Shown here piece by piece: positions 1,816-16,241 of a stretch of 32,654 nt of DNA. This DNA is from an uncultured Azonexus sp. (GTDB lineage Bacteria > Pseudomonadota > Gammaproteobacteria > Burkholderiales > Rhodocyclaceae): assembly GCA_937983545.1 (NCBI GenBank), contig CALJZP010000188.1:1-32654 (forward strand), in the 5' to 3' direction. Numbering within the stretch: the first letter of the stretch is position 1; every line of letters starts with the position of its first letter. Made by a program: the position numbers and the translations under genes. The notes under the pieces were generated by a model, which did not search any database, was not told the DNA's origin, and saw only the letters and a list, made by a program, of their open reading frames with translations.

Positions 1816-2907
1816 ATGTCTCTGAAATGCGGTATCGTCGGCCTGCCCAACGTCGGCAAATCCACCCTGTTCAACGCCCTGACCAAGTCGGGCATCGCCG
1901 CCGAAAACTATCCGTTCTGCACCATCGAACCGAACGTCGGCATCGTCGAAGTGCCGGATCCGCGGCTCGCCAAGCTGTCCGAGATCGTCAAGCCGCAGAA
2001 GATCCAGCCCGCCATCGTCGAATTCGTCGATATCGCCGGCCTGGTCGCCGGCGCCTCCAAGGGCGAAGGCCTGGGCAACCAGTTCCTGGCCAATATCCGC
2101 GAAACCGACGCCATCGTGCATGTCGTGCGCTGCTTCGACGACCCGAACGTGATCCACGTTTCCGGTAGCGTTGATCCGCTGCGCGACATCGAAGTCATCG
2201 ATACCGAACTGGCACTGGCCGACATGGCGACCGTCGAAAAGGCGCTGAATCGCTACAAGCGCCCGGCCAATTCGGGCGACAAGGAAGCCAAGATCCTGGT
2301 CGCCGTACTGGAAAAGTGCTTCGCCCAGCTGGATCAGGGCAAGGCCGTGCGCGGCCTCGACCTCTCCAAGGAGGAATGGGCCAGCCTGAAGCCCTTCTGC
2401 CTGATCACCGCCAAGCCGGTGCTCTACGCCGCCAACGTCGCCGAAGACGGCTTCACCGACAACCCGCTGCTGGCCAAGGTAGAAGCCCACGCCGCCGAGG
2501 AAGGATCGCAGGTCGTCGCCCTGTGCGCCTCGATTGAAGCCGAGATTGCCGACCTCGACGATGCCGACAAGGTCGATTTCCTGGAGTCGATGGGCCTGCA
2601 CGAAGCCGGCCTCGACCGCCTGATCCGCGCCGGCTACAAGCTGCTCGGCCTGCAGACCTACTTCACGGCCGGGGTCAAGGAGGTCCGCGCGTGGACCATC
2701 CATGCCGGCGACACGGCCCCGCAGGCAGCGGGCGTCATCCACACCGACTTCGAGCGTGGCTTCATCCGCGCCCAGACCATCGCCTTTGACGACTTCATCA
2801 CCTACAAGGGTGAAACCGGCGCCAAGGAAGCCGGCAAAATGCGCGCCGAAGGCAAGGAATACGTCGTCAAGGACGGCGACGTCCTGAACTTCCTGTTCAA
2901 CGTCTAA
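1816..2907 (+). CDS. ychF: Redox-regulated ATPase YchF (OBG-family GTPase-like)
   Basis: [51 protein letters not shown]...; canonical C-terminus ...[19 protein letters not shown]-like AAGGAAA upstream; track start 1642 is too long. Confidence 0.97.
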
Positions 2908-2908
2908 A
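2896..2908 (+). repeat. Putative attL core of the integrated element (GTTCAACGTCTAA), overlapping the ychF stop codon
   Basis: GTTCAACGTCTAA near the ychF end recurs as GTTTAACGTCTAA at about 11138-11150, directly upstream of the next backbone gene. Confidence 0.7.
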
Positions 2909-2981: not shown

Positions 2982-3025
2982 CATTTCAGCGTGTATCACC
3001 GGAATTCTTCTCTTCTCACTCAAAA

Positions 3026-3077
3026 CCGGGTACGATTCCGGGTATGGAGTAAACGGACCCCGACAAAAAGCCGGGTA
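3026..3077 (+). repeat. Left arm-type repeats CCGGGTA (three copies) upstream of the integrase
   Basis: CCGGGTA at 3026-3032, 3038-3044 (12 bp spacing) and 3071-3077; context AAACCGGGTACGATTCCGGGTA matches AAACCGGGTACGAAACCGGGTA at the right end of the element. Confidence 0.7.
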
Positions 3078-3103: not shown

Positions 3104-4366
3104 ATGCTGACCGACACCAAATGCCGCACCGCCAAGCCGAAGGAGAAGCCTTACAAGCTGACCGACGAAAAGGGGCTGTATCTGGAAGTGAAGCCCAACG
3201 GCGGGAAGGCTTGGCGCTACCGTTTCGAGTTGGGCGGCAAGGAAAGCGTGTTTGCCATCGGCGACTATGTGAGCGCCCCCAGCGCCGAAACCCCCGAGGA
3301 AGCGAGGGCACGTCGGGACGGCGGGCGGTTCACCCTGGCGGAAGCCCGCGACGAACGCATCAAGGCGCGGGGCCTGGTGAAGCAAGGCGTCAACCCGGCG
3401 CATAGCCGCCAGCTAGACAAGATCAAGCGGGAGCAAGAGAACGCCACAACCTTTGAGGCCGTCGCCCGTGAATGGCTGGCCCTCAAGGATTGGGAGGAAA
3501 TCACCAAGAAGCGGCGGCTAGACATGCTGGCCCGTGTGGTCTTCCCGAAGATTGGCGCCCTGCCCGTGAAGCAAGTTACCCCCGCCCATATCTTGGACGT
3601 GCTGAAAACCGCCCAAGAGAAGAACGGCCCTTCTGTGGCAGCCGAGGCAAAGCGCACCATGTCCGGGGTTTTCGAGCTTGCCGTATCCACACTGAGGGCC
3701 GACGCCGACCCCGTGCATCCGGTACGCAAGGCGCTTCCGGCGAACAAGACCCAGCACAAGCGCCCGCTGGATACCGACGAGATTGGCCGGATTCTTCGGG
3801 ACGTCGAAGCCCACGGCGGCCGGCATGAAACCATGGGCGCTTTCCGCCTCATGTGGCTAACCCTTTGCCGCCCGAGCGAAGCCGTCGAAGCCGAGTGGAC
3901 GGAGTTCGACCTAGACGCTGCAATCTGGCGTATCCCGGCGGAACGCATGAAGAAGCGCAAGGAGCATGCAATACCGCTGCCCGCCCAAGCTGTGGAATTG
4001 CTGCGTGCGCTGCACGGCATCACCGGCCGCCATAAGCACGTATTCCCCGGGCGGGACGATAAGGACAAGCCCATGGCCGTTGCTTCCTTCCGGCAAATGC
4101 TTAACGTGCTGGGCTGGGGCGGGAAATACAGCCCCCACGCAACCCGGACCACGGGCAGCACGCGGCTAAACGAAATGGGCTACCCGGCGGACTGGATAGA
4201 GCGCCAACTAGCCCACGCCGAGCCCAACGCCGTGCGCCGAACCTATAACCACGCGGAACACTTGGCCGACCGTGCCAAGATGATGCAGCAATGGGCGGAC
4301 ATGCTGGATTCCTGGAAGAAGGGCGACAGCGCCAAGGTCGTACCGTTGCACGGGGCCGCGGCGTAG
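3104..4366 (+). CDS. int: Tyrosine recombinase, P4-type integrase (N-terminal DUF4102-like arm-binding domain)
   Basis: MLTDTKCRTAKPKEKPYKLTDEKGLYLEVKPNGGKAWRYRFELGGKESVFAIGDY; catalytic motifs TLCRPSEAVEAEW, HATRTTGSTRLNEMG, LAHAEPNAVRRTYNHAEHLADRAKMMQQWADMLD. Confidence 0.97.
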   Translation: MLTDTKCRTAKPKEKPYKLTDEKGLYLEVKPNGGKAWRYRFELGGKESVFAIGDYVSAPSAETPEEARARRDGGRFTLAEARDERIKARGLVKQGVNPAHSRQLDKIKREQENATTFEAVAREWLALKDWEEITKKRRLDMLARVVFPKIGALPVKQVTPAHILDVLKTAQEKNGPSVAAEAKRTMSGVFELAVSTLRADADPVHPVRKALPANKTQHKRPLDTDEIGRILRDVEAHGGRHETMGAFRLMWLTLCRPSEAVEAEWTEFDLDAAIWRIPAERMKKRKEHAIPLPAQAVELLRALHGITGRHKHVFPGRDDKDKPMAVASFRQMLNVLGWGGKYSPHATRTTGSTRLNEMGYPADWIERQLAHAEPNAVRRTYNHAEHLADRAKMMQQWADMLDSWKKGDSAKVVPLHGAAA

Positions 4367-4384: not shown

Positions 4385-4798
4385 ATGAAGAAAAAGCCCG
4401 ATGCCATACCGCTTGAGGCGCTACTAGACGCCCCCGGCTTTGAGCGCAATTGCGAAATCCTGCTTTCGGAACCTGTGGCCGCCCCCAGCGCGACCGATTC
4501 TTCGCGGGCACGGAAGGCGATAACTTCGCTTGTCGTTTCCGGCGCCGTAGAGCGTGCCAAATCGAAACGGCAGCACGTCGCAAACTCACAGAAGGGCGGG
4601 GCCGCTTCCGTTCAATCAAGGCGCAGTGAGCTTGCCCTACGCAACAAGACCATTGCAGAAGATGCCCGGCGGAAGCTGGCCGCCGGCTATTCTGAGCGTG
4701 AGATATGCGGCATGCTTGCCCAACAAAAAGGACTGTCGGCAAAACAGATTAGAACGATTCTGCAAGATGAAGGCGTCCTAGAAAAAAGACGGAAGTGA
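4385..4798 (+). CDS. Hypothetical protein (basic, possible DNA-binding C-terminus)
   Basis: 137 aa ORF in the same orientation, directly after the integrase; C-terminus 'YSEREICGMLAQQKGLSAKQIRTILQDEGVLEKRRK' reads as a possible HTH. Family not recognised. Confidence 0.7.
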   Translation: MKKKPDAIPLEALLDAPGFERNCEILLSEPVAAPSATDSSRARKAITSLVVSGAVERAKSKRQHVANSQKGGAASVQSRRSELALRNKTIAEDARRKLAAGYSEREICGMLAQQKGLSAKQIRTILQDEGVLEKRRK

Positions 4799-4864: not shown

Positions 4865-5092
4865 ATGGCAACCCGCAAAGACCCTAGCGCAATCCCCGAC
4901 GCGCTAAAGAACTTCGATTCCCTCCCCGATTCCGCGAACGTTCGCCAGCCCGTAGTACAGGCGTTGGTCGGCTGTTCGTCCGCTACCGTTTGGCGCATGG
5001 TCAAGCGTGGCACTCTGCCCGCCCCCCGCAAGCTGTCGACCAATGTGACCGCCTGGAATGTGGGCGACCTTCGCAAAGCCCTTGCAGCGTAG
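4865..5092 (+). CDS. AlpA/excisionase-like small helix-turn-helix protein
   Basis: 75 aa; 'VRQPVVQALVGCSSATVWRMVKRGTLPAPRKLSTNVTAWNVGDLRKALAA' matches the AlpA-type wHTH pattern (T/S-xxWR-xxxxGxxPxPxxLxxxxxxWxxxDL). Confidence 0.8.
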   Translation: MATRKDPSAIPDALKNFDSLPDSANVRQPVVQALVGCSSATVWRMVKRGTLPAPRKLSTNVTAWNVGDLRKALAA

Positions 5093-5255: not shown

Positions 5256-5606
5256 ATGACCACCTGGCAACAAAAGAAGATCGGCCAAGACTTGGTCGCC
5301 GCCTCCCAACAATTGGCCCGCGCCAAGAAAGTTGCAATGGTAGGCGGCCCCTTGGCTAAAAGCCTGGGCGCCGGCATGGAAGCCGAAGCCCGCCGCAAGG
5401 TGAAAGACCTTGTCGACCTGGCCGAGAAGTACCACGGCGGCAAGCCCACGCTTGCCAAGGACGAAGCCGAGGCCGTTAGCTGGCAAGAGATATCCGCCGC
5501 CGCCCTGCAACTGACCGACGAGGATTGGGGGCGCTTTACCTGCCAGCGTGAAATCCTCGACCGCCTTATTGAAATCGCCTTGAAGAATCGGAGCAATGCC
5601 AAATGA
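5256..5606 (+). CDS. Hypothetical protein
   Basis: 116 aa ORF packed directly after the 50-aa ORF; stop overlaps the next start. Confidence 0.7.
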   Translation: MTTWQQKKIGQDLVAASQQLARAKKVAMVGGPLAKSLGAGMEAEARRKVKDLVDLAEKYHGGKPTLAKDEAEAVSWQEISAAALQLTDEDWGRFTCQREILDRLIEIALKNRSNAK

Positions 5607-6151
5607 CTACCCCGCAAACTGAAATCGCAACTATCAACGCCAAAATAGCCGAGCTTCGCACCCTGTGGCATGACCTGGCGGCCAAGGGGAAGCATGCGGA
5701 AGCTGTGGGCGTAGAAAACGAGATTGCCGGCCTTGAGCGTGCCGTCGCCCGCTATGAAATCCAAGCGAAGGCCGAAGGCGCCGAACGCAAGCGCCAGCAG
5801 GCCGTAAGTGCCGCCGAATCCACGCTAAAGCAGATCGAAGCCCACAAGGTAGCCCGTGCCGAGCTTGAAGCCGTGGTCGTGGAAATTGAGGAAGCAGCGA
5901 AGGCCGTCGACGCCGCAATGGCACGCTTGCAGCCGGCGTTTACGAAGTGCGCCGCCTCCTGGCCCTCCTGGCAGAAATTCAAAGACACGGAGCAGCAACA
6001 AGCCTACGACGCGGAATTGGGAGCGGACAAGTACCCGCGCTTTGATGCCTTGCGCCTTCGACTTCGCCTCCCCGTGGTCCTAGCCATCCTGTCCCATCGC
6101 GGCAATCGGGGCCTTGCGGAGATTCTTAACGCCGCCGACGCGAGGTTCTAG
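5603..6151 (+). CDS. Hypothetical coiled-coil protein
   Basis: 182 aa ORF with Ala/Glu/Lys-rich helical middle; overlaps the previous ORF by 4 nt (ATGA). Confidence 0.7.
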   Translation: MTTPQTEIATINAKIAELRTLWHDLAAKGKHAEAVGVENEIAGLERAVARYEIQAKAEGAERKRQQAVSAAESTLKQIEAHKVARAELEAVVVEIEEAAKAVDAAMARLQPAFTKCAASWPSWQKFKDTEQQQAYDAELGADKYPRFDALRLRLRLPVVLAILSHRGNRGLAEILNAADARF

Positions 6152-6153
6152 CC

Positions 6154-7050
6154 ATGGCAAAGTCCTTCAACAACAAAAAGGCCCTGCGCTTCGTCATCAC
6201 CCTGGGAACAGGCAAATTTGGTTCAAGCAACAATGACCAAATCACGCTGCAAGGCTTCCGGGCAAGTGTGGATATCGACAAAGCCGGGGGCGTGCAAATG
6301 GGCACCCTGCGGGCCAAGATTTACGGCGTATCCCAATCGGATATGAATACGTGCACTAGCTTCACGATGCAGGCGCCCCGCGACGGCGGCTATCTCTATC
6401 AGCCCAACACCGTGGAAGTGTTCGCCATCGACGGCGATGTTGAAACGCTGGTATTCGCCGGCAACATCGTCAACGCCTGGGCGGACTATCAGAACGCCCC
6501 CGACGTCCACCTTCACATTCAGGCGACCGCCGCCATGTTCGCAGCGCTTAAGCCCGTGTCGCCGCGTAGCTTCAAGGGCGGGGTCGACGTGGCGTCCGTC
6601 ATGGCCCAAATTGCCCACAGCATGGGCTTTGCATTCGAGAACAACGGGGTCAACGTCAAGCTGTCCGACGTCTACCTTGCCAATACGGACTTGGAGCAGG
6701 CCAAGGAGCTAGCGCAAGCGGCCGGCATCGGCCTTTGGATTGACGACAAAGTATTGGCTATCACCCAATCCCCGAGAACGCCCCGCGGGACGGTTATACC
6801 GCTCATTTCGCCAGCTTCCGGCCTGGTTGGCTATCCGACCTTCGACGGCTGGGGCGTCAATGCTCGTTTGCTCTTCAATCCCGCCATACAGTTTGGCGGC
6901 CGGGTGAAGATCGAAACCGACGTAATACAAGCGGCCGGGGAATGGGTTGTCGCCTGTATCAGCCACCATTTGGAAAGCGAGAAGCCCGGCGGGGCCTGGT
7001 TTTCTAGCGTGCGCCTAAATCAAACCGGCCTGGCAATTTCCGGGCGTTGA
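6154..7050 (+). CDS. Phage tail baseplate hub-like protein
   Basis: 298 aa. Pattern 'LRFVITLGTGKFGSSNNDQITLQGFRASVDIDKAGGVQMGTLRAKIYGVS...FAGNIVNAWADYQNAPDVHLHIQATAAMFAALKPVSPRSFKGGVDVASVMAQIAHSMGFAFENNGVNVKLSD...GLVGYPTFDGWGVNARLLFNPAIQFGGRVKI...WVVACISHHLESEKPGGAWFSSV' resembles tailed-phage hub proteins from memory of the family; not verified by search. Confidence 0.65.
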   Translation: MAKSFNNKKALRFVITLGTGKFGSSNNDQITLQGFRASVDIDKAGGVQMGTLRAKIYGVSQSDMNTCTSFTMQAPRDGGYLYQPNTVEVFAIDGDVETLVFAGNIVNAWADYQNAPDVHLHIQATAAMFAALKPVSPRSFKGGVDVASVMAQIAHSMGFAFENNGVNVKLSDVYLANTDLEQAKELAQAAGIGLWIDDKVLAITQSPRTPRGTVIPLISPASGLVGYPTFDGWGVNARLLFNPAIQFGGRVKIETDVIQAAGEWVVACISHHLESEKPGGAWFSSVRLNQTGLAISGR

Positions 7051-7129
7051 CGTAGGTAAATAATTTATCTAAATCAACAAGTTACGACGAAATTTTGATT
7101 GACGCGTAGATATCGGACGCGCAAAATGC

Positions 7130-7168
7130 AAATGCCCGCAAGTGCTAGTAACACAGGCGGGCATTTTT
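7130..7168 (+). terminator. Rho-independent terminator after the hub-like gene
   Basis: AAATGCCCGC-(17 nt)-GCGGGCATTTTTGG; perfect 10-bp arms followed by T-run. Confidence 0.7.
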
Positions 7169-7277
7169 GGCAGCCTTAACAGCTACCGGGTAATACAGTT
7201 TCGCAAGCTAAGAATATCCGATAGTGACACCCTCGTCAACAGGCTGCCGTTTTGAAACCTGAAAAAAGGCCTTCATC

Positions 7278-7472
7278 ATGGCAACCGCTAAAACTCAACT
7301 TCTGACCCCCACGGATGTTGAACGCGAATACGGGATTCCGGTACGCACTCAACGCATGTGGAAGTATCGCAATAGCTACGGATGGCGCGACCTTACCATC
7401 AAGGTAGGCGCCATGGTGCGCTATCGCCGGGCCGATATCGACGCCTGGCTGCAATCGCGTAAGGGGGTCTAA
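7278..7472 (+). CDS. Small helix-turn-helix (MerR/AlpA-like) DNA-binding protein
   Basis: 64 aa; 'LLTPTDVEREYGIPVRTQRMWKYRNSYGWRDLTIKVGAMVRYRRADIDAWLQSRK' is the helix_turn_helix_17 type pattern. Confidence 0.8.
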   Translation: MATAKTQLLTPTDVEREYGIPVRTQRMWKYRNSYGWRDLTIKVGAMVRYRRADIDAWLQSRKGV

Positions 7473-7475
7473 ATC

Positions 7476-7736
7476 ATGGCAACCGAACGCAAAACGGACG
7501 CCCCCGAGGCGCCGGCCCTTCCTTGCTCCATTGAGCATTACAGCCTCATGACCCCTTGGCCGGCGGACGGCAAGCCGGGCCAGTGCTGGGGCGCAAAATG
7601 CGCCGCCTACGCCCCCGTAAACGACGGCTGGGGGTACTGCCTCTTTCATCAAGCCTTGCGGGTAATGGGCAACGACGCCAAGCACGGAAACGAGGAAGTA
7701 CGCCGCGTGCTGGAAAAGCTGGGGGTGAAATCATGA
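7476..7736 (+). CDS. Small Cys/His-containing hypothetical protein
   Basis: 86 aa; Cys/His positions 'PCSIEHYSL...CWGAKCAAYAPVNDGWGYCLFHQ' suggest a metal-binding knuckle; stop overlaps the primase start (ATGA). Confidence 0.7.
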   Translation: MATERKTDAPEAPALPCSIEHYSLMTPWPADGKPGQCWGAKCAAYAPVNDGWGYCLFHQALRVMGNDAKHGNEEVRRVLEKLGVKS

Positions 7737-10081
7737 TTGCCCCAGCACTCTACGGCCTTACGGTACACCGGCAATTCATCGTCTACCGCCTTGAGCCCAG
7801 CAAATCACGCCTCGGCAAGCTGGAAAAGCTGCCGATTGACTACAGCACCGGCCGCGTAGTTTCCGCCCACGATAGCGCCTTTTGGTTGAGCTATGACAGC
7901 GCCGACCGCTTCGCCCAGCAGTTTGGCGACGGCCATGGTGTGGGCTTCGTAATCACCCCCGAAAGCAAGGTGTTTTGCCTGGATATCGACGGCTGCCTAC
8001 AGGCCGACGGCCAATGGTCCCAGCAATCCCGCGACCTGTGCGCCATGTTTCCCGGCGCCGCTATCGAGTGCAGCGTATCCGGTCGGGGCCTTCACATTTG
8101 GGGCACGTATTCCGGCGATATGCCGCCACACGGCTGCAAAAACGAGGCCCTGGGCATTGAGCTATATACCGAGAAGCGATTTATTGCCCTGGGGCGGGCG
8201 GAAGGCGCTACAGGCAACGTCGGAACGGATTGCAGCATGCCGCTTCAATGCGCCGCCGCCGTCTACTTCCCGCCCGATATGGCCCAAACCGTCGACCAAG
8301 CATGGACGGAAGGACCGTGCGAGGAATGGCGGGGGCCGGCTGATGATGAAGAGCTATTGCGCCGGGCCATGCGTTCCCAATCCAGCGCCGCCGCTTTCGG
8401 GGGGCGGGCTTCCTTTGCGGACCTTTGGCAAGCGGACCCCGTGGCTTTGACTAAGGCGTATCCGGCCGGCGGCCGTGTCGACGGAACCCCTTACGATGCC
8501 AGCAGCGCCGACGCCGCCCTGGCCCAGCATTTGGCCTTCTGGACGGGGAAGGACTGCGAACGCATCAAGCGGCTAATGGAGCGTAGCGCCTTGGCCCGCG
8601 ACAAGTGGAACCGGGAAGACTATTTGCCCCGCACCATCCTGGGGGTTGTCGCCCGTCAATTTGAAGTCTTCGTTGACGAGGCAACCCGGCGCCGGGAGCA
8701 AATCGAAGAGACTATGCGAATCGGCGAGGGCTCCGACGAAATCCGCCTTGCAGGCACGATCACGCTTGATGAAATGCTGCCCCGCTTCGTCTTCATCCAA
8801 GACGGCCAGCAAGTGGTCGACCTGCAACAGCCGCAACACGTAGCCGCGTTGGGCGATTGGAAAGCAACTTTTAAGGCGTCGACGACGACCCTGGAAGTCA
8901 AAGGACAATTCAACTTTGACGGCACGCCGAAAACGAAGACCTACGAAACGGCCGCCCTTTGGGAGAAGAACCCGAAGCGCCAAATTGCCCACGCTGTAAC
9001 CTTCAAGGCTGGTGGACGGCGGGTAACAGCCGACCCCAAGGGCAGAGAGGCCCTAAACACTTGGAGCCCGGTCGACCGTAGCGTGCCGCCTGGCGACCCC
9101 TCCCTGTTCCTTGAGCATGTGGGCTACCTCTTCGGCGCCGACGCCCCGCGCTTCCTTGATTGGCTGGCCCATATCGAGCAGCGACCGGGGGAGCTTCCGC
9201 ACCATGGCTGGGTCCATATTTCGGACACGCACGGCACGGGCCGCAACTGGCTTGCCGGCGTTGTCGCCCGCCTGTGGCCGGGGTATGGCGCCATCAATTT
9301 TGATTTGAGCGGAATGCTACGCACCGGCTTTAACGACCGGCTGTCGAGCAAGCTAATTGCCGTGGTCGACGAGATTCGGGAGGGCGGCAACGATGCCAAA
9401 TGGGACAACGCGGAAACGATGAAGCGGGTCGTTACCGAAGAGTACCGGACCATTAACCCGAAGTTTGGGCGAATCCGCGAAGAGTTCAACGCCTGCCGCT
9501 GGCTGATCTTTTCAAATCACATTAGCGCCCTGACCTTGGACGAACACGACCGCCGCTTCAATGTCGTGCATAACGAAGCGCCGCCCCGAGCCCCGGACTA
9601 TTACGCCCGCCTGTACGCCGTCTTGAAGGAGCCTGCATTTATCGCCGGGGTTGCCCATTTGCTACGGACCCGCGACCTATCCAGTTTCAACCCTGGGGCG
9701 CATGCCGCTATGAACGCCGCCAAGGAAGCCGTCGTCGCCGCCAGCCGTAGCGAAGCTGACGAAACCCTGGTCGAACTGGTCAAGCACTGGCCCGCCGATG
9801 TAATCCATACGTCGACCCTTGGCGAACTGATTACCGGCCAGCTTGGCGGCAAGGTTACGCGGGGCCATATGCACGCCTTGGAGCGCCGGGGAATTAAGCC
9901 CTATAGGTCGCTTATCAAGATTGAGGGGGCGCCTGTCCGGGTCAGCATCTTGCGGAACGTTGCGCGATGGAAAGACGCAGAGCCCGTGCACATTCGTGCC
10001 GAGCTAGGGCGAGGGCCGACGCCGCTGCAAATGCCGATAGGCGGGGCGCGGGCCTACCTGGATAACCTCACAGCCGTTTAA
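7733..10081 (+). CDS. Primase-polymerase/SF3-type helicase fusion (bifunctional primase N-terminus; DUF5906/NrS-1-like helicase C-terminus)
   Basis: 782 aa from ATG 7733. AEP-like motifs 'VFCLDIDGCL' (hDhD) and 'ECSVSGRGLHIWG' then 'FIALGRAEG'. Helicase: Walker A-like 'SDTHGTGRNWLAG', Walker B 'LIAVVDEIRE', sensor-1-like 'CRWLIFSNHISAL', Arg finger-like 'DEHDRRFNVV'. The track start 7556 overlaps the preceding ORF and is too long. Confidence 0.85.
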   Translation: MIAPALYGLTVHRQFIVYRLEPSKSRLGKLEKLPIDYSTGRVVSAHDSAFWLSYDSADRFAQQFGDGHGVGFVITPESKVFCLDIDGCLQADGQWSQQSRDLCAMFPGAAIECSVSGRGLHIWGTYSGDMPPHGCKNEALGIELYTEKRFIALGRAEGATGNVGTDCSMPLQCAAAVYFPPDMAQTVDQAWTEGPCEEWRGPADDEELLRRAMRSQSSAAAFGGRASFADLWQADPVALTKAYPAGGRVDGTPYDASSADAALAQHLAFWTGKDCERIKRLMERSALARDKWNREDYLPRTILGVVARQFEVFVDEATRRREQIEETMRIGEGSDEIRLAGTITLDEMLPRFVFIQDGQQVVDLQQPQHVAALGDWKATFKASTTTLEVKGQFNFDGTPKTKTYETAALWEKNPKRQIAHAVTFKAGGRRVTADPKGREALNTWSPVDRSVPPGDPSLFLEHVGYLFGADAPRFLDWLAHIEQRPGELPHHGWVHISDTHGTGRNWLAGVVARLWPGYGAINFDLSGMLRTGFNDRLSSKLIAVVDEIREGGNDAKWDNAETMKRVVTEEYRTINPKFGRIREEFNACRWLIFSNHISALTLDEHDRRFNVVHNEAPPRAPDYYARLYAVLKEPAFIAGVAHLLRTRDLSSFNPGAHAAMNAAKEAVVAASRSEADETLVELVKHWPADVIHTSTLGELITGQLGGKVTRGHMHALERRGIKPYRSLIKIEGAPVRVSILRNVARWKDAEPVHIRAELGRGPTPLQMPIGGARAYLDNLTAV

Positions 10082-10095
10082 TCGCGGGATAGGGG

Positions 10096-10200
10096 GTAAC
10101 GGAAGTAACAGAAGTAACGGGATTCTCGGGAGTGTAGGGGGAATTTATAAATCTCTCTCTGCTCTTTTAAGGTATCTGTTACTTCCGTTACTTCTGTTAC
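10096..10200. repeat. Six-copy 9-bp iteron array in inverted halves, candidate replication origin
   Basis: GTAAC at 10096, 10105, 10114 and its complement GTTAC at 10178, 10187, 10196, all on 9-bp spacing (GTAACGGAAGTAACAGAAGTAACGG ... GTTACTTCCGTTACTTCTGTTAC); AT-richer spacer between (GAATTTATAAATCTCTCTCT..CTTTTAA). Directly downstream of the primase-helicase gene. Confidence 0.75.
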
Positions 10201-10229
10201 CCGCCAGCCCAAGGAAAGGAGCAAACCCC

Positions 10230-10667
10230 ATGCACATTGAAGAACTATTGCGGAAGGCCATTGCAGCCGAAGCCAAGGCCAGCCGGAAGAATTCCAAGGC
10301 GGTTGCGCGAGTGTGGGCGTTAACCTACGCCGACGCGGCCCTGGCCCTCTTTGAGCGCCTACGGATTGAAAGCGGCAAGGCGCGGACATTGGTCAACGTG
10401 GCTCACGCCTACCACGCCCGCAAAGCCGAGCTATCCGAATTCGACCGCGCCTGGCGTGTCTTCAAGAAAAGCCCAAGTGGGCACTATCAAGCCGCCATCC
10501 TTGCCCAGCGGGCAATTTTGCAGGCAACGGACGCGGTAAAGGACGCTTGGCCGGTCGAACGTCTGGCAGAAGCCGCCGTCGCCTTGAGCAAGGCAGAATC
10601 CTACGCTTCCCGCTCCCCCTTGCTCAAAGTCCGGGAATTCCTGAGCGCCCACCATGAGCCCGCTTGA
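10230..10667 (+). CDS. Hypothetical helical protein
   Basis: 145 aa ORF with RBS-like AAGGAAAGGAG upstream; overlaps the next ORF by 14 nt. Confidence 0.7.
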   Translation: MHIEELLRKAIAAEAKASRKNSKAVARVWALTYADAALALFERLRIESGKARTLVNVAHAYHARKAELSEFDRAWRVFKKSPSGHYQAAILAQRAILQATDAVKDAWPVERLAEAAVALSKAESYASRSPLLKVREFLSAHHEPA

Positions 10668-11034
10668 ACTACGGCGCCGCCTTAAGGCTTGGTACTTGGC
10701 ATGCGAACGCGTCGACGCCGTGCGTCAATACCTGGCACACAGCGAAGAATTGGCCGAACGGCGCATTTCGCTATACCTCGACACCGGCAAGATACCGCCC
10801 CCGCTGGTGTTGCCCGACTATCCAGAATTCCCGCCGGAGTGTGTGGGCATGATTTGCGGAGCCAAGGCCAAGAGTACGGGGGAGCCGTGCAAGTCGACCC
10901 AAATCCATAAAAATGGCCGCTGTAAATTCCATGGCGGGCTTTCTACAGGCCCCAAAAGCCTTGCCGGAAAATTAGCGGCATTGGAAAATCTAAGACTTGG
11001 GCGGGAACCCCATAGGGACGTTTACAAAAGCTGA
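10654..11034 (+). CDS. HGGxxTGP-motif small phage-type protein
   Basis: 126 aa; 'ICGAKAKSTGEPCKSTQIHKNGRCKFHGGLSTGPKS' is the CGAxTR.G.PC...GRCxxHGGxSTGPKT pattern common in phages and mobile elements. Confidence 0.8.
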   Translation: MSPLELRRRLKAWYLACERVDAVRQYLAHSEELAERRISLYLDTGKIPPPLVLPDYPEFPPECVGMICGAKAKSTGEPCKSTQIHKNGRCKFHGGLSTGPKSLAGKLAALENLRLGREPHRDVYKS

Positions 11035-11057
11035 AATTTTGCCCCGCGACGACTAAA

Positions 11058-11076
11058 CCGGGTACGAAACCGGGTA
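11058..11076 (+). repeat. Right arm-type repeats CCGGGTA (two copies)
   Basis: CCGGGTA at 11058-11064 and 11070-11076, the same 12-bp spacing as the left pair. Confidence 0.7.
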
Positions 11077-11137
11077 CACGAAAGGAACGGAAATTATGAT
11101 TACCAGTAACCATGCGCCTTTGTGGCTGTAACTTTCC

Positions 11138-11150
11138 GTTTAACGTCTAA
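11138..11150 (+). repeat. Putative attR core (GTTTAACGTCTAA)
   Basis: 12 of 13 bases match the ychF 3' end core GTTCAACGTCTAA at 2896-2908; next backbone ORF starts at 11163. Confidence 0.7.
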
Positions 11151-11162
11151 CCTCCTCCGCCG

Positions 11163-12908
11163 ATGACACCCCCGGAAAAACCGTCGCCGACCGGTGCCGA
11201 CGACGGCTTTCCGCTCTCGTCAGCCATCTTGTGGCGTGCCTACGAGCAAAGCCATGAAGCGGTGCTCATTTCCGACGGGGAAAACCGGATCGTCGCGGCC
11301 AACGCGGCCTTCACGCGACTGACCGGTTACACGGCCGCGGAAGTGATCGGCCAGAATCCCCGCATCCTGGCCTCCGGCAATGCCAGCCCCGAGTTCTACA
11401 CCGGCATGTGGGAAAGTCTTGCCCAGTACGATACCTGGGAAGGCGAAATATGGGACAGGCGCAAGGACGGCAGCATTTACCCGAAATGGCTATGCATCTC
11501 GGTCATCCGCAATGCCAGCGGCCTGATCAGCAACTACGTCGCCAACTTCACCGACATCAGCGCCAGCAAACAAGCGGCCGACCGCCTGGCCCAGCTCGCC
11601 TACCATGACGTCCTGACCCATCTGCCCAACCGGCTGGCCTTCGAGTCCCAACTCGCCCACGCCCTGCGCGTCTGTGAGCGGGAAGGCCGCCAACTGGCCT
11701 TGATGTTGATCGACCTCGACAACTTCAAGAACATCAACGACACCCTGGGACACCACACCGGCGACGAACTGCTGCAACAGGTTGCCCGTCGGCTGCGCGA
11801 GTCGGTACGAGCCAGCGACCTCGTCGCCCGCCTGGGCGGCGATGAGTTCGTTGTCGTTCTGCCCGAGATCGAAGGCCCGCAGACAGCCGCCCGGGTCGCC
11901 AACAAGATCCAGGTTGCGATTGCCGAGAACTACTGGGTCGGCGAGCATCTGCTCTACACCACGCCCAGCATCGGCATCAGCCTTTATCCGGGCGACGGCA
12001 CCGATCCGGGTATCCTGCTGCGCAATGCCGACTCGGCGATGTACCACGCCAAGAACGCCGGCCGGAACAACCATCAGTTTTACGCCTCGCGAATGAACGA
12101 AGCGGCCGGCGAACGCCTGCAGCTGGAAAACGAGCTGCGCCAGGCAATCTCGTCCATCTCCCCCGAAAACTGCGAATTCTCGCTGCACCTGCAGCCGCAG
12201 ATCGATACGGCAACAGGCCGCGTCGTTGGCCTGGAGGCCTTGCTACGCTGGACAAGCCCGACCTACGGCATGGTCTCGCCCATGCGCTTCGTGGCGATTG
12301 CCGAAGAAACCGGCCTGATCCAGCCGCTGGGCGACTGGGTGATCTGGGAAGCCTGCCGGATCACGCGCCAACTGCGCACCCACGGCATTGACGACGTGCG
12401 CCTGGCGATCAATATCTCGGCGCAACAGCTCCGCCACGAAAACCTGCTGCTGCTCATTCAGGGCGCTCTGGCCTGTTATGACCTGAAGCCCCAGGACATC
12501 GAACTCGAGGTCACGGAAAGCACGGCCATGCAGAATCCGGAAATCACCTTGTCGATTCTCGACCAGCTATCCGCCATGGGCATCATGCTGGCCATCGACG
12601 ACTTCGGAACCGGGTACTCGTCGCTGGCCTACCTCAAGCACTTGCCGATCAACCGCCTGAAGCTCGACCGCTCCTTCGTCACCGATATCGAAACCGACCC
12701 CAACGATGCCGCCATCTGTACCGCCACGATTGCGCTGGGACACAGCCTCGGTCTCGAACTGGTCGCCGAAGGGGTGGAGACGGAAGCCCAGCGCGCCTTC
12801 CTGACTCACCTCGGCTGTGATGTCCTGCAGGGCTACCTGTACGGCAAGCCCATGCCCTTCGATGAAACGGTCGCCTACCTGAAGGAATTCCGCTCCGCTA
12901 GCGAATGA
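11163..12908 (+). CDS. PAS-GGDEF-EAL cyclic-di-GMP signalling protein
   Basis: PAS 'AVLISDGENRIVAANAAFTRLTGYTAAEVIGQNPRIL'; 'ARLGGDEFVVVLPE'; 'VVGLEALLRW'; 'IDDFGTGYSSLAYLKHLPINRLKLDRSFV'. Confidence 0.95.
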   Translation: MTPPEKPSPTGADDGFPLSSAILWRAYEQSHEAVLISDGENRIVAANAAFTRLTGYTAAEVIGQNPRILASGNASPEFYTGMWESLAQYDTWEGEIWDRRKDGSIYPKWLCISVIRNASGLISNYVANFTDISASKQAADRLAQLAYHDVLTHLPNRLAFESQLAHALRVCEREGRQLALMLIDLDNFKNINDTLGHHTGDELLQQVARRLRESVRASDLVARLGGDEFVVVLPEIEGPQTAARVANKIQVAIAENYWVGEHLLYTTPSIGISLYPGDGTDPGILLRNADSAMYHAKNAGRNNHQFYASRMNEAAGERLQLENELRQAISSISPENCEFSLHLQPQIDTATGRVVGLEALLRWTSPTYGMVSPMRFVAIAEETGLIQPLGDWVIWEACRITRQLRTHGIDDVRLAINISAQQLRHENLLLLIQGALACYDLKPQDIELEVTESTAMQNPEITLSILDQLSAMGIMLAIDDFGTGYSSLAYLKHLPINRLKLDRSFVTDIETDPNDAAICTATIALGHSLGLELVAEGVETEAQRAFLTHLGCDVLQGYLYGKPMPFDETVAYLKEFRSASE

Positions 12909-14397
12909 CCTTGCGCCACTCGGCCTCGAAGTAGCGCACCAAGACCTGGTTGTTCAACTGATTGACCTCGGCCGTAACCCGTCCCATATCGGCTGGAAAG
13001 ACGAACATTCCCGGGATGATCTGGGGCGTCAGGTAGCGCGTCTTCGGCAGTTCGAGCGCCCCCGGAACGAAAGACCGACGCCCGGCAAGGATATAGCCCC
13101 ACTCGCCGAACGATGGCACTTGCGTGTGGTAAGGCGAGGTTTTGAAGCCGACGCTTTCCAGCGTCGTCACCACGCACCAGAACGACTGCCGGGCATAAAG
13201 CGGCGATGTCGACTGGACAACCAGCAAGCCGTTGGCCGACAGTCGCTTTTCGATCAGGCGGTAGAAGGCCGCGGTGTACAGCTTGCCGAGCGCGAAATTC
13301 GACGGATCGGGAAAGTCGATAACGATGAAATCGAAATAATCCCTGCTCTCCTCCAGCCACTGCACGGCATCGGCATTGACGACGCTCACCCGATCCGACT
13401 TCAGCGCTCCCTCGTTCAGGGCCACCAGCGCCGGGGCCGTCGAGAACAGGTCGGTCATGCCGGGATCGAGATCGACCAGGGTGACCGATTCGACCCCCGG
13501 ATACTTCAGGATTTCACGCACCGCGAGCCCATCGCCACCGCCCAGGACGAGCACGCGCTTCGCACCGGGCAGGCTGGACAGGCCGGGATGGACCAGCGCC
13601 TCGTGATAACGGTATTCGTCGTGCGACGAAAATTGCAGATTGTTGTTCAGGAACAGGCGCAGGTCGTCGCGCCAGCGGGTGACGACAATACGCTGATAGG
13701 GCGTCGACTCGGCATGGACGATTTCGTCGGCATACACATGCGCTTCGGCCATGCTCGTCAGTTGGCCGGCGCCGGAAAAACCGGCCAGCAGCAAGCCGAA
13801 TACTCCCCAGCTCTGCGCCAGCAGTGCGCGACGGGCCGGCAACTGCTCCCGGAACAGATGCAGGGCCCATAACGCGACCCCGACGTTGAGCAGGCCGAAC
13901 AACAGCCCGGTGCGCACCATGCCCAGATGCGGCGCCAGGATCAGCGGAAACAGGATGGATACCGCCAATGCCCCCAGATAATCGAAGGTCAGCACTTGCG
14001 ACACCAGATCCTTGAACGCCAGTTCACGTTTCAGGATGCGCATGACCAGCGGAATCTCCAGCCCGACCAGCACGCCGACGCCGAACACCACGAGATAAAG
14101 CACCAGCTTGAACGGTGCCGACAGCCAGGTGAAGACCAGGAACAAGCCAACCGCCGAGAACCCGCCGAGCAGGCCCACCATCAGTTCGATCTGGATGAAG
14201 CGGCCGATCAGGTCGCGGGTAATGTACTTGGACAGCCAGGAACCGACCCCCATGGCGAACAGGTAGGTGCCGATCACGGTCGAAAACTGCATCACCGAAT
14301 CGCCCAGCAGGTAGGACGACAGGGCGCCGGCGATCAACTCGTAGGCCAGGCCGCAGGAGGCAATGACGAAGACGGAAAAGAGAAGGGCATGACGCAT
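12898..14397 (-). CDS. Membrane-embedded spermidine synthase-like protein (N-terminal TM domain + SpeE-like domain)
   Basis: From MRHALLFSVFVIASCGLAYELIAGALSSYLLGDSVMQFS (multi-TM) to 'VLVLGGGDGLAVREILKYPGVESVTLVDLDPGMTDL' and 'DFIVIDFPDPSNFALGKLYTAAFY'. The track start 14946 is too long. Confidence 0.9.
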   Translation of the reverse strand: MRHALLFSVFVIASCGLAYELIAGALSSYLLGDSVMQFSTVIGTYLFAMGVGSWLSKYITRDLIGRFIQIELMVGLLGGFSAVGLFLVFTWLSAPFKLVLYLVVFGVGVLVGLEIPLVMRILKRELAFKDLVSQVLTFDYLGALAVSILFPLILAPHLGMVRTGLLFGLLNVGVALWALHLFREQLPARRALLAQSWGVFGLLLAGFSGAGQLTSMAEAHVYADEIVHAESTPYQRIVVTRWRDDLRLFLNNNLQFSSHDEYRYHEALVHPGLSSLPGAKRVLVLGGGDGLAVREILKYPGVESVTLVDLDPGMTDLFSTAPALVALNEGALKSDRVSVVNADAVQWLEESRDYFDFIVIDFPDPSNFALGKLYTAAFYRLIEKRLSANGLLVVQSTSPLYARQSFWCVVTTLESVGFKTSPYHTQVPSFGEWGYILAGRRSFVPGALELPKTRYLTPQIIPGMFVFPADMGRVTAEVNQLNNQVLVRYFEAEWRKVIR

Positions 14398-14478
14398 GGG
14401 CAGCGATGCTACCCGAAATGCGCGGAACGGCGCAGCACCCGAACGGTCAGAGGAACAGCGCCATACGAGACGAAAGCC

Positions 14479-15045
14479 ATGCCCCCCTGTCGCCTGCTTG
14501 CCGCCCTGCTGCTGACTGCCTCGGTCACCTGCGCCGGGGCCACCCAATATGTCATCGACCCCGGCCACACCTACGCCAGTTTCGAGATCGACCACCTCGG
14601 CTTCTCGACGCAGCGTGGGCAATTCAACCGTAGCAGCGGAACGGTCGAATTCGATCCCGAACGAAAGACCGGCCGTATCGACATCCGCATCGACGCGGCA
14701 TCGCTCGACACCGGACTCGACCTGCGCGACAACGTGTTGCGCGGTGAAGACTGGTTCGATACGCGGTCTTTCCCCGACATCCTGTTTCGCAGCCAGAAGC
14801 TGATCTTCGACGGCGACAAACTCAGCGCTGTCGACGGCAGCCTGGTCATGCGCGGCGAAATCCGCCCGATACGCCTGGAAATCCTTCGCTTCAAGTGCGG
14901 CCTCAATCTGGCCAACCGCAAGCGCGGCTGCGGCGCCGACGCGCAAGCCAGCCTGCGCCGCTCCGACTTCGGCCTGAACAACGGCTTGCCCTTCATCGGC
15001 GACGAGGTCCGCCTGCGCATCCAGGTCGAAGCCTACCTGCCCTAA
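14479..15045 (+). CDS. YceI family periplasmic lipid-binding-like protein
   Basis: Signal peptide then 'QYVIDPGHTYASFEIDHLGFSTQRGQFNRSSGTVEFDPE...GRIDIRIDAASLDTG'. Track start 13927 is too long. Confidence 0.93.
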   Translation: MPPCRLLAALLLTASVTCAGATQYVIDPGHTYASFEIDHLGFSTQRGQFNRSSGTVEFDPERKTGRIDIRIDAASLDTGLDLRDNVLRGEDWFDTRSFPDILFRSQKLIFDGDKLSAVDGSLVMRGEIRPIRLEILRFKCGLNLANRKRGCGADAQASLRRSDFGLNNGLPFIGDEVRLRIQVEAYLP

Positions 15046-15131
15046 ATCGCCTGTCGCTCACTAAAGTCATGTGCTAACGCGCTGTTTCTGCGAAAATAGC
15101 TCCCCTTCTGCTGTTCCCCGGAATACCCCCC

Positions 15132-16241
15132 ATGCCCCCCCATCAAGCCATTGCCAGCACCGCCGAAATCGTCGCCGAACTCAAGGCCGGCCGCATGGTC
15201 GTGCTGGTCGATGAAGAAGACCGCGAGAACGAAGGCGACCTCGTCATGGCCGCCGAACACATCACGCCGGAGGCCATCAATTTCATGGCCAAGTACGGCC
15301 GCGGCCTGATCTGCCTGACCTTGACCGCCGAACGCTGCAAAAAGCTGGGCCTGACCCAGATGGCACGCAGCAACGGGACCGTCTACGGCACCGCCTTCAC
15401 CGTCTCCATCGAGGCCGCCGAAGGCGTCACCACCGGCATTTCCGCCGCCGACCGTGCCAAGACCATCCAGGTTGCGGTGGCCAAGAACGCCGTCGCCGAC
15501 GACATCGTGCAGCCCGGCCACGTTTTCCCGATCACCGCCCGCGAAGGCGGCGTTCTGGTTCGCGCCGGCCACACCGAAGCCGGTTGCGACCTGGCCGGCA
15601 TGGCCGGGCTGGAGCCCGCCTCGGTCATCTGCGAAATCATGAACGACGACGGCACGATGGCCCGCCTGCCCGAGCTGATCGAGTTCGCCAAGGAGCATGG
15701 CATCAAGATCGGCACCATCGCCGACCTGATCCATTACCGCGCCTCCTCGGAAACCTTGGTCAAGCGCGTCACCAGCAAGCCGATCGATACCGCGCACGGC
15801 GAATTCACGCTGCACGCCTTCGTCGACCAGGCCAGCGGCGCGACGCACCTGGCGCTGGTCAAGGGCGACATCCCGGCCGGCGGCGAAACGTTGGTCCGCG
15901 TCCATGAACCGCTGTCGGTGCTCGATTTCCTCGATCCGGCCAGCAAGCGCCAAGCCTTCTCCATTGATCAAGCCCAGGCGGCGCTGGCCCGGAACGGCCA
16001 CGGCGTCATCGTGCTGATGCACCGTCCGGAAGATGGCGAGGCGATCCTCACTCGCCTCACCGGCACCGCCCCGAGCGCCCCGGCCAAGTGGGACCCGCGC
16101 AGCTACGGCATCGGTGCGCAGATCCTGCGCGACCTCGGCGTCACCAAGATGCGCCTGCTCTCCAGCCCGCGCAAGATGCCCTCCATGGCCGGCTTCGACC
16201 TCGAAGTGACCGGCTTCGTCTCTTCTCCTGCGGAGCTCTAA
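15132..16241 (+). CDS. ribB: 3,4-dihydroxy-2-butanone-4-phosphate synthase with degenerate GTP cyclohydrolase II domain (RibBX type)
   Basis: RibB motifs '[31 protein letters not shown]', '[16 protein letters not shown]'; the C-terminal half lacks the Zn-binding CLTGDxFGSxRCDC motif. Confidence 0.93.

Follow-up and report, generated by a model that had tools for sequence, protein, structure and literature searches.

Why would a small integrated element carry a gene for one part of a phage tail, and what could a single tail protein do for it? The question is raised by an 8.2-kb island in a 32,654-nucleotide stretch of DNA (contig CALJZP010000188.1; hereafter the window) from the genome of an uncultured Azonexus sp. 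(3.66 Mb, 86% complete). The island joins genes for an integrase, an AlpA-like protein and a primase and is integrated at the 3′ end of ychF, its att core falling within the final ychF codons; the tail gene is the open reading frame (ORF) at 6154-7050, which an earlier, sequence-only reading had called hub-like. The explanation that we consider best, and to which we give an even chance of being correct, is that the island is a small phage satellite, with integrase, AlpA and a DUF5906 primase and no capsid genes, of a lineage of virulent, contractile-tailed phages (myophages) with genomes of ~43 kb, and that it puts its own hub into the baseplates of its helper.

The ORF lies on the plus strand, is intact from its ATG start and encodes 298 amino acids. 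Residues 6-292 are covered by the ‘baseplate hub’ profile PHROG_196 (E=1.6e-51), and the Pfam family PF22759, ‘Baseplate hub gp41’ (E217_GP41), matches at 6e-18 (65.5 bits, cut-off 27). An AlphaFold model built from 65 sequences of the window and the compared loci had a mean pLDDT of 89.6 and a pTM of 0.86; its closest solved structures are the hubs of phiTE, E217 (gp41) and Pa193, with Mu gp44 and T4 gp27 lower in the list. Profiles and predicted fold thus identify 6154-7050 as a full-length baseplate hub of a contractile-tailed phage, in agreement with the sequence-only reading, and the objection that the protein might have no hub fold falls away. In E217, gp41 forms a trimer through which the ring complex of the tail tube is connected with the spike (PMC10329688).

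No credible capsid, portal, terminase, tape-measure, tube, sheath or spike domain was found in the island ORFs scanned against Pfam and PHROG, which upholds the earlier claim that the 8.2 kb holds no other structural gene; we discounted the match of an ORF at 4385-4798 to a portal family (E=0.0015), which is confined to the family's C-terminal tail, is not credible alone and is probably spurious. Probing with tail proteins from two phages that carry a hub gave no match at the hub locus of the window or at that of its closest relative, described below. Viral contigs with a relative of the hub carried other tail genes in every case (79/79), and at least 6 of the 17 probes matched in each of them. 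Homologue searches drew on sampled genomes and exact peptide seeds, and frequencies given here and below are not a census.

The closest relative came from a scan of genome contigs: a hub 86% identical to that of the window, in the metagenome-assembled genome HGW-Betaproteobacteria-7 (L089). It lies in an island with the same gene order, att site and hub position, and the att core is common to both ends of both islands. Other proteins of the two islands are about 47-93% identical, several neighbours of the hub down to 52-73%, and the primases are homologous only over their first ~310 residues, their C-terminal halves being unrelated. Between the two hubs dN/dS is 0.153 at a dS of 0.72, comparable to neighbouring genes; related phage hubs at similar dS have a median of 0.084 (range 0.038-0.121), so that the hub is clearly under purifying selection, if of a somewhat weaker kind than phage hubs experience. 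Of the 156 columns conserved among near phage hubs (n=24), both hubs retain 136. They also have a changed loop at about residues 69-84, five residues longer than in near phage hubs and seen elsewhere only in locus L090, and form a clade of their own (100/100) apart from all phage hubs. The intact L089 copy and the purifying selection tell against a decayed remnant of a tail operon, and the proposal of a satellite-like island with its own hub gains from a hub that is intact, constrained and found in a recurring arrangement.

Two related loci have no hub. One, in the same genus (L115), carries a related integrase, coiled-coil protein, helix-turn-helix (HTH) protein, primase and C-terminal protein, and there the conserved leader of the HTH gene directly follows the coiled-coil gene; in the other (L100), the entire stretch corresponding to the ORFs at 5256 and 5603 and the hub is missing. 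Comparison with these relatives shows the hub to be a discrete single-gene insertion.

Which phages might serve as helper? The nearest, with hubs 55-73% identical, have genomes of ~43 kb and are apparently virulent, as a tyrosine integrase was found in 0 of 12 near-hub records versus 2 of 2 distant-hub records. The N-terminal domain of their primases is 58-63% identical to that of L089, and identity to the window primase is 37-39% over ~700 amino acids. When the island's DNA was compared with that of every locus, a 34-bp match to near-hub phages came out directly after the hub stop, outside the hub itself and besides the matches to related islands; its core is a 19-bp palindrome, TAGNTAAATNATTTANCTA. 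The three islands (window, L089 and the hub-less L115) conserve the palindrome in an equivalent position and, with up to two mismatches allowed, each host genome has a single site, which lies in its island and 5′ of the primase operon. Of 15 phage records whose hubs are 55-73% identical, 11 also have it, at 1-5 copies each; none of the distant-hub phage records does. Having noticed it post hoc, we then tested it against a reversed control pattern, which had no occurrence in the phage records. In phages the palindrome often occupies the 17-bp spacer of TTGACA/TATAAT promoters, near genes for a primase and for ParB-like, polymerase-like, terminase and portal-like proteins, these names coming from reading and not from scans. 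In seven apparently virulent phages of ~43 kb (L165, L183, L149, L206, L157, L146 and L163) several promoters were seen to have it between their -35 and -10 elements.

The shared palindrome suggests that a helper regulator acts on the replication operon of the satellite. A resident prophage of the near-hub lineage is an unlikely helper, because the hub is single-copy in its own genome and near-phage terminase large subunits find matches of just 28-32% in the genus. Since the hub is alone, and since the hub, a primase domain and a control site are shared with apparently virulent phages, the hub is probably built into helper tails.

The island is a compact element with an integrase, att sites, replication genes and an incomplete set of virion genes, as phage satellites are defined. 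Its features are as follows.

2891-2908, plus strand: attL, TTCCTGTTCAACGTCTAA, in the 3′ end of ychF; forms an imperfect direct repeat together with 11133-11150
3104-4366, plus strand: tyrosine integrase, directed inward (PF00589 3.6e-24, PHROG_1 1.4e-73; 88% identical to L089)
4385-4798, plus strand: small ORF of unknown function (53% identical to its L089 counterpart; the weak portal C-terminal match, 0.0015)
4865-5092, plus strand: AlpA-like excisionase or regulator (Phage_AlpA 6.7e-4, slightly under the cut-off; 93% identical to L089, 81% to L100)
5256-5606, plus strand: small ORF opening the cassette that ends in the hub (71% identical to L089; no Pfam or PHROG family match)
5603-6151, plus strand: predicted coiled-coil protein of 182 amino acids, immediately 5′ of the hub (73% identical to L089, 51% to the hub-less L115)
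6154-7050, plus strand: baseplate hub by profiles and AlphaFold (E217 gp41/T4 gp27 fold), final gene of the left operon (86% identical to L089)
7053-7071, plus strand: palindrome TAGGTAAATAATTTATCTA, putative operator common to the nearest-hub phages; sole site in the genome (up to two mismatches)
7099-7127, plus strand: putative promoter of the primase operon, TTGACG-N17-CAAAAT, from the three-island alignment and its match to the consensus
7130-7277, plus strand: terminator-like hairpin and highly structured leader, possibly an attenuator or P4 CI-RNA-like (z-score -4.2)
7278-7472, plus strand: HTH_17 DNA-binding protein (HTH_17 4.3e-5, PHROG_4745 6.8e-6)
7476-7736, plus strand: Cys-rich small protein (84% identical to L089)
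7733-10081, plus strand: primase-helicase with NrS-1-like HBD and DUF5906 (PF22763 3.7e-16, PF19263 1e-13, PHROG_1829 1.8e-71)
10230-10667, plus strand: small ORF of unknown function (47% identical to L089)
10654-11034, plus strand: small protein with a C/H-rich HGGxSTGP motif (PHROG_6177 2.2e-7, of unknown function; 54% identical to L089)
11133-11150, plus strand: attR, TTTCCGTTTAACGTCTAA, partner of the repeat at 2891-2908

Close to both ends of the island, at 3023-3035 and 11055-11067, lies AAACCGGGTACGA, probably marking integrase arm sites. Scans of the viral collection with the Cys-rich and coiled-coil proteins gave no relatives. The C-terminal half of the L115 primase is 81% identical to that of L089 (11581-13938 there) and that of the window (7733-10081) is unrelated to it, which suggests that helicase halves are being swapped.

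The region downstream of the hub is nearly invariant across the three islands from 7099 to 7277, where a promoter is followed immediately by a terminator-like hairpin and then by a folded leader of ~110 nucleotides; the palindrome is centred ~70 bp 5′ of the probable start of this second conserved promoter. The leader folds with a z-score of -4.2, most of its columns are invariant in the three islands, and no Rfam family came close to its gathering score. The sequence-only reading had taken the hub to be intact and followed by its own terminator; the gene is intact, but the hairpin at ~7130-7166 lies just 3′ of the promoter that serves the next operon, and the hub-less island conserves it equally well; it is at least as likely to be a leader attenuator as a hub terminator. 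In phage P4, a structured leader upstream of the primase operon mediates attenuation through CI RNA, and the order of promoter, hairpin and leader in the island would resemble control of this type.

We propose the following course of events. The regulator of an infecting helper phage would act at the shared palindrome, the satellite would replicate, and the hub would be made as the last product of the operon that begins with the ORFs at 5256 and 5603. It would trimerise and, in lieu of the phage hub, connect the tail tube, or its initiator ring, with the spike, and satellite genomes, with some phage genomes too, would leave in particles with chimeric baseplates. The satellite's own loop (~69-84) could aid delivery of its DNA, evade interference aimed at the hub or tail, or skew tail assembly away from the helper.

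Satellites have long been held to act on their helpers chiefly through capsid and packaging. In 2026 the PLE11 satellite of Vibrio cholerae brought tails into satellite action: its hub and tape measure replace those of ICP1 in chimeric tails, and the virions exclude the ICP1 versions (PMC12987554). Because this replacement has been demonstrated, the mechanism is not undescribed, as the sequence-only reading had supposed. By analogy with PLE11, incorporation into helper baseplates is the most likely role of the hub, and its full length, constraint and predicted structural integrity would favour replacement over poisoning. The two systems are alike in a satellite-encoded baseplate hub and a contractile-tailed helper (PMC12987554), which for the window island we infer from sequence, and they differ in host and apparent helper lineage. 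PLE11 carries its hub in a set with tape measure protein (TMP) and tail assembly chaperone (TAC) (BhuB/TMP/TAC), whereas the window island has the hub only; the TMP and TAC of its own by which a PLE is recognised had no match in the island. What is new relative to PLE11 is the solitary hub. Should one hub be enough, takeover of tails would be simpler and more widespread than PLE11 implies, and a satellite family would be tied to an identifiable, apparently virulent phage lineage by a specific DNA site, so that helper choice would be directly testable.

Among other known satellites, the island recalls the PICMI of Vibrionaceae (PMC10803314) in its small size, its integrase, AlpA and DUF5906 primase, its want of capsid-remodelling genes and its presumably virulent helper. 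PF00589 and PF19263 score above their cut-offs and PF05930 slightly under (19.9 bits, cut-off 21); the island differs in carrying a hub, in its betaproteobacterial host and in its position at the 3′ end of ychF, as PICMI integrate at fis. With P4-like satellites it shares integrase, AlpA and primase-helicase, but Psu, Sid and Delta have no homologue among the island proteins scanned and the leader has no Rfam match. Gram-negative PICIs with captured late genes (PMC10111431) likewise have an inward integration zone with Int and AlpA, and late genes from helpers; the window island differs in having a single tail gene, located before the replication zone.

Several observations weigh against incorporation of the hub into helper baseplates. 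It is accessory, being absent from L115 and L100; unlike in PLE11, no tape measure or chaperone accompanies it; its dN/dS of 0.153 exceeds the phage-hub range, as would fit some relaxation or altered use; and the palindrome and primase shared with the IMG/VR phages that we take as helpers could stem from common ancestry and not from present parasitism. The altered loop and slightly raised dN/dS would also suit a dominant-negative decoy that joins the complex initiating the helper's baseplate or titrates it, cutting phage yield and protecting the host or favouring the satellite with no use in satellite virions, and disturbing the assembly of tails is a defence strategy already known (PMC11364771). 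We nevertheless think a decoy unlikely: the hub is full-length, has lost no domain and keeps most of the columns conserved in near phage hubs, a search for defence functions with PADLOC gave no meaningful match, and a trimeric hub that poisoned tails would also stop the satellite's own spread if it used the same helper.

The accessory presence of the hub is equally what one would expect of neutral or transient cargo, a late gene taken from a helper and retained by chance with no present role, and work on elongated PICIs does propose that late-gene clusters are captured and that most of the genes are then lost (PMC10111431). Purifying selection at a dS of 0.72, exact positional retention in two genomes, at least three independent captures of a lone hub (below) and the lack of tail-gene remnants flanking the hub make this quite improbable. 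There is a slim chance that the island is a decayed prophage of the near-hub lineage that retained primase and hub, as that lineage has the same hub, primase domain and palindrome. Near-hub phages have no tyrosine integrase, however, whereas the island has an inward integrase, AlpA and two att sites, no pseudogene remnants were seen in it, and intact relatives exist in other genomes; the L089 copy, intact and likewise at ychF, together with the missing tail remnants, largely refutes such decay. Slimmer still is the chance that the hub was repurposed beyond tails, for instance as a VgrG-like or membrane-active protein: the fold is common to VgrG and injection-system hubs, but the nearest sequences are phage hubs (61-73%) and no effector domain has been added.

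Lone hubs also occur in elements unrelated to the window island family, and on these grounds we count at least three captures. In another genus of the same bacterial family, a 6.3-kb element (L106, 8945-15293) with 17-bp repeats at tRNA-Arg(CCT) contains an integrase, AlpA, an O-like initiator, a DnaC-like loader and, last, a lone hub; this satellite-like element is very small and bears a structural gene. In Rhizobium rhizogenes NBRC 13257, a 16.2-kb element with 56-bp att repeats at tRNA-Phe (from 15241 of L213 to ~15000 of L093) contains an integrase, a terminase large subunit, a coiled-coil protein and a lone hub. The 17 tail probes found no match in either element, and 15 of them matched a Rhizobium phage-like locus with a related hub (L091). 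In the hub tree, the R. rhizogenes hub groups with Rhizobium phage hubs (100/100), that of the 6.3-kb element lies on a long branch, and three label changes are forced. It is conceivable, with somewhat less than an even chance, that lone hubs are a tool to which satellites have turned repeatedly: unrelated ones would each have taken one hub from local contractile phages and would build chimeric baseplates without tape measure or chaperone, and in the window family a palindrome copied from the promoters of a virulent helper would switch replication.

Comparison of the coiled-coil protein 5′ of the R. rhizogenes hub with the window protein at 5603-6151 gave no support for a relationship. A class-wide hub search returned one further genome with a strong match, located on a contig of 37,504 bases, the length of the L090 contig. 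On a 33.7-kb Methylobacterium plasmid (NZ_CP155002.1), positions 9048-15503 of locus L110 hold a partial tail module with tape-measure-like, wedge-like and spike-like genes and a hub; the other tail probes had no match in the 25 kb read, and the module may represent a plasmid-borne partial-tail element.
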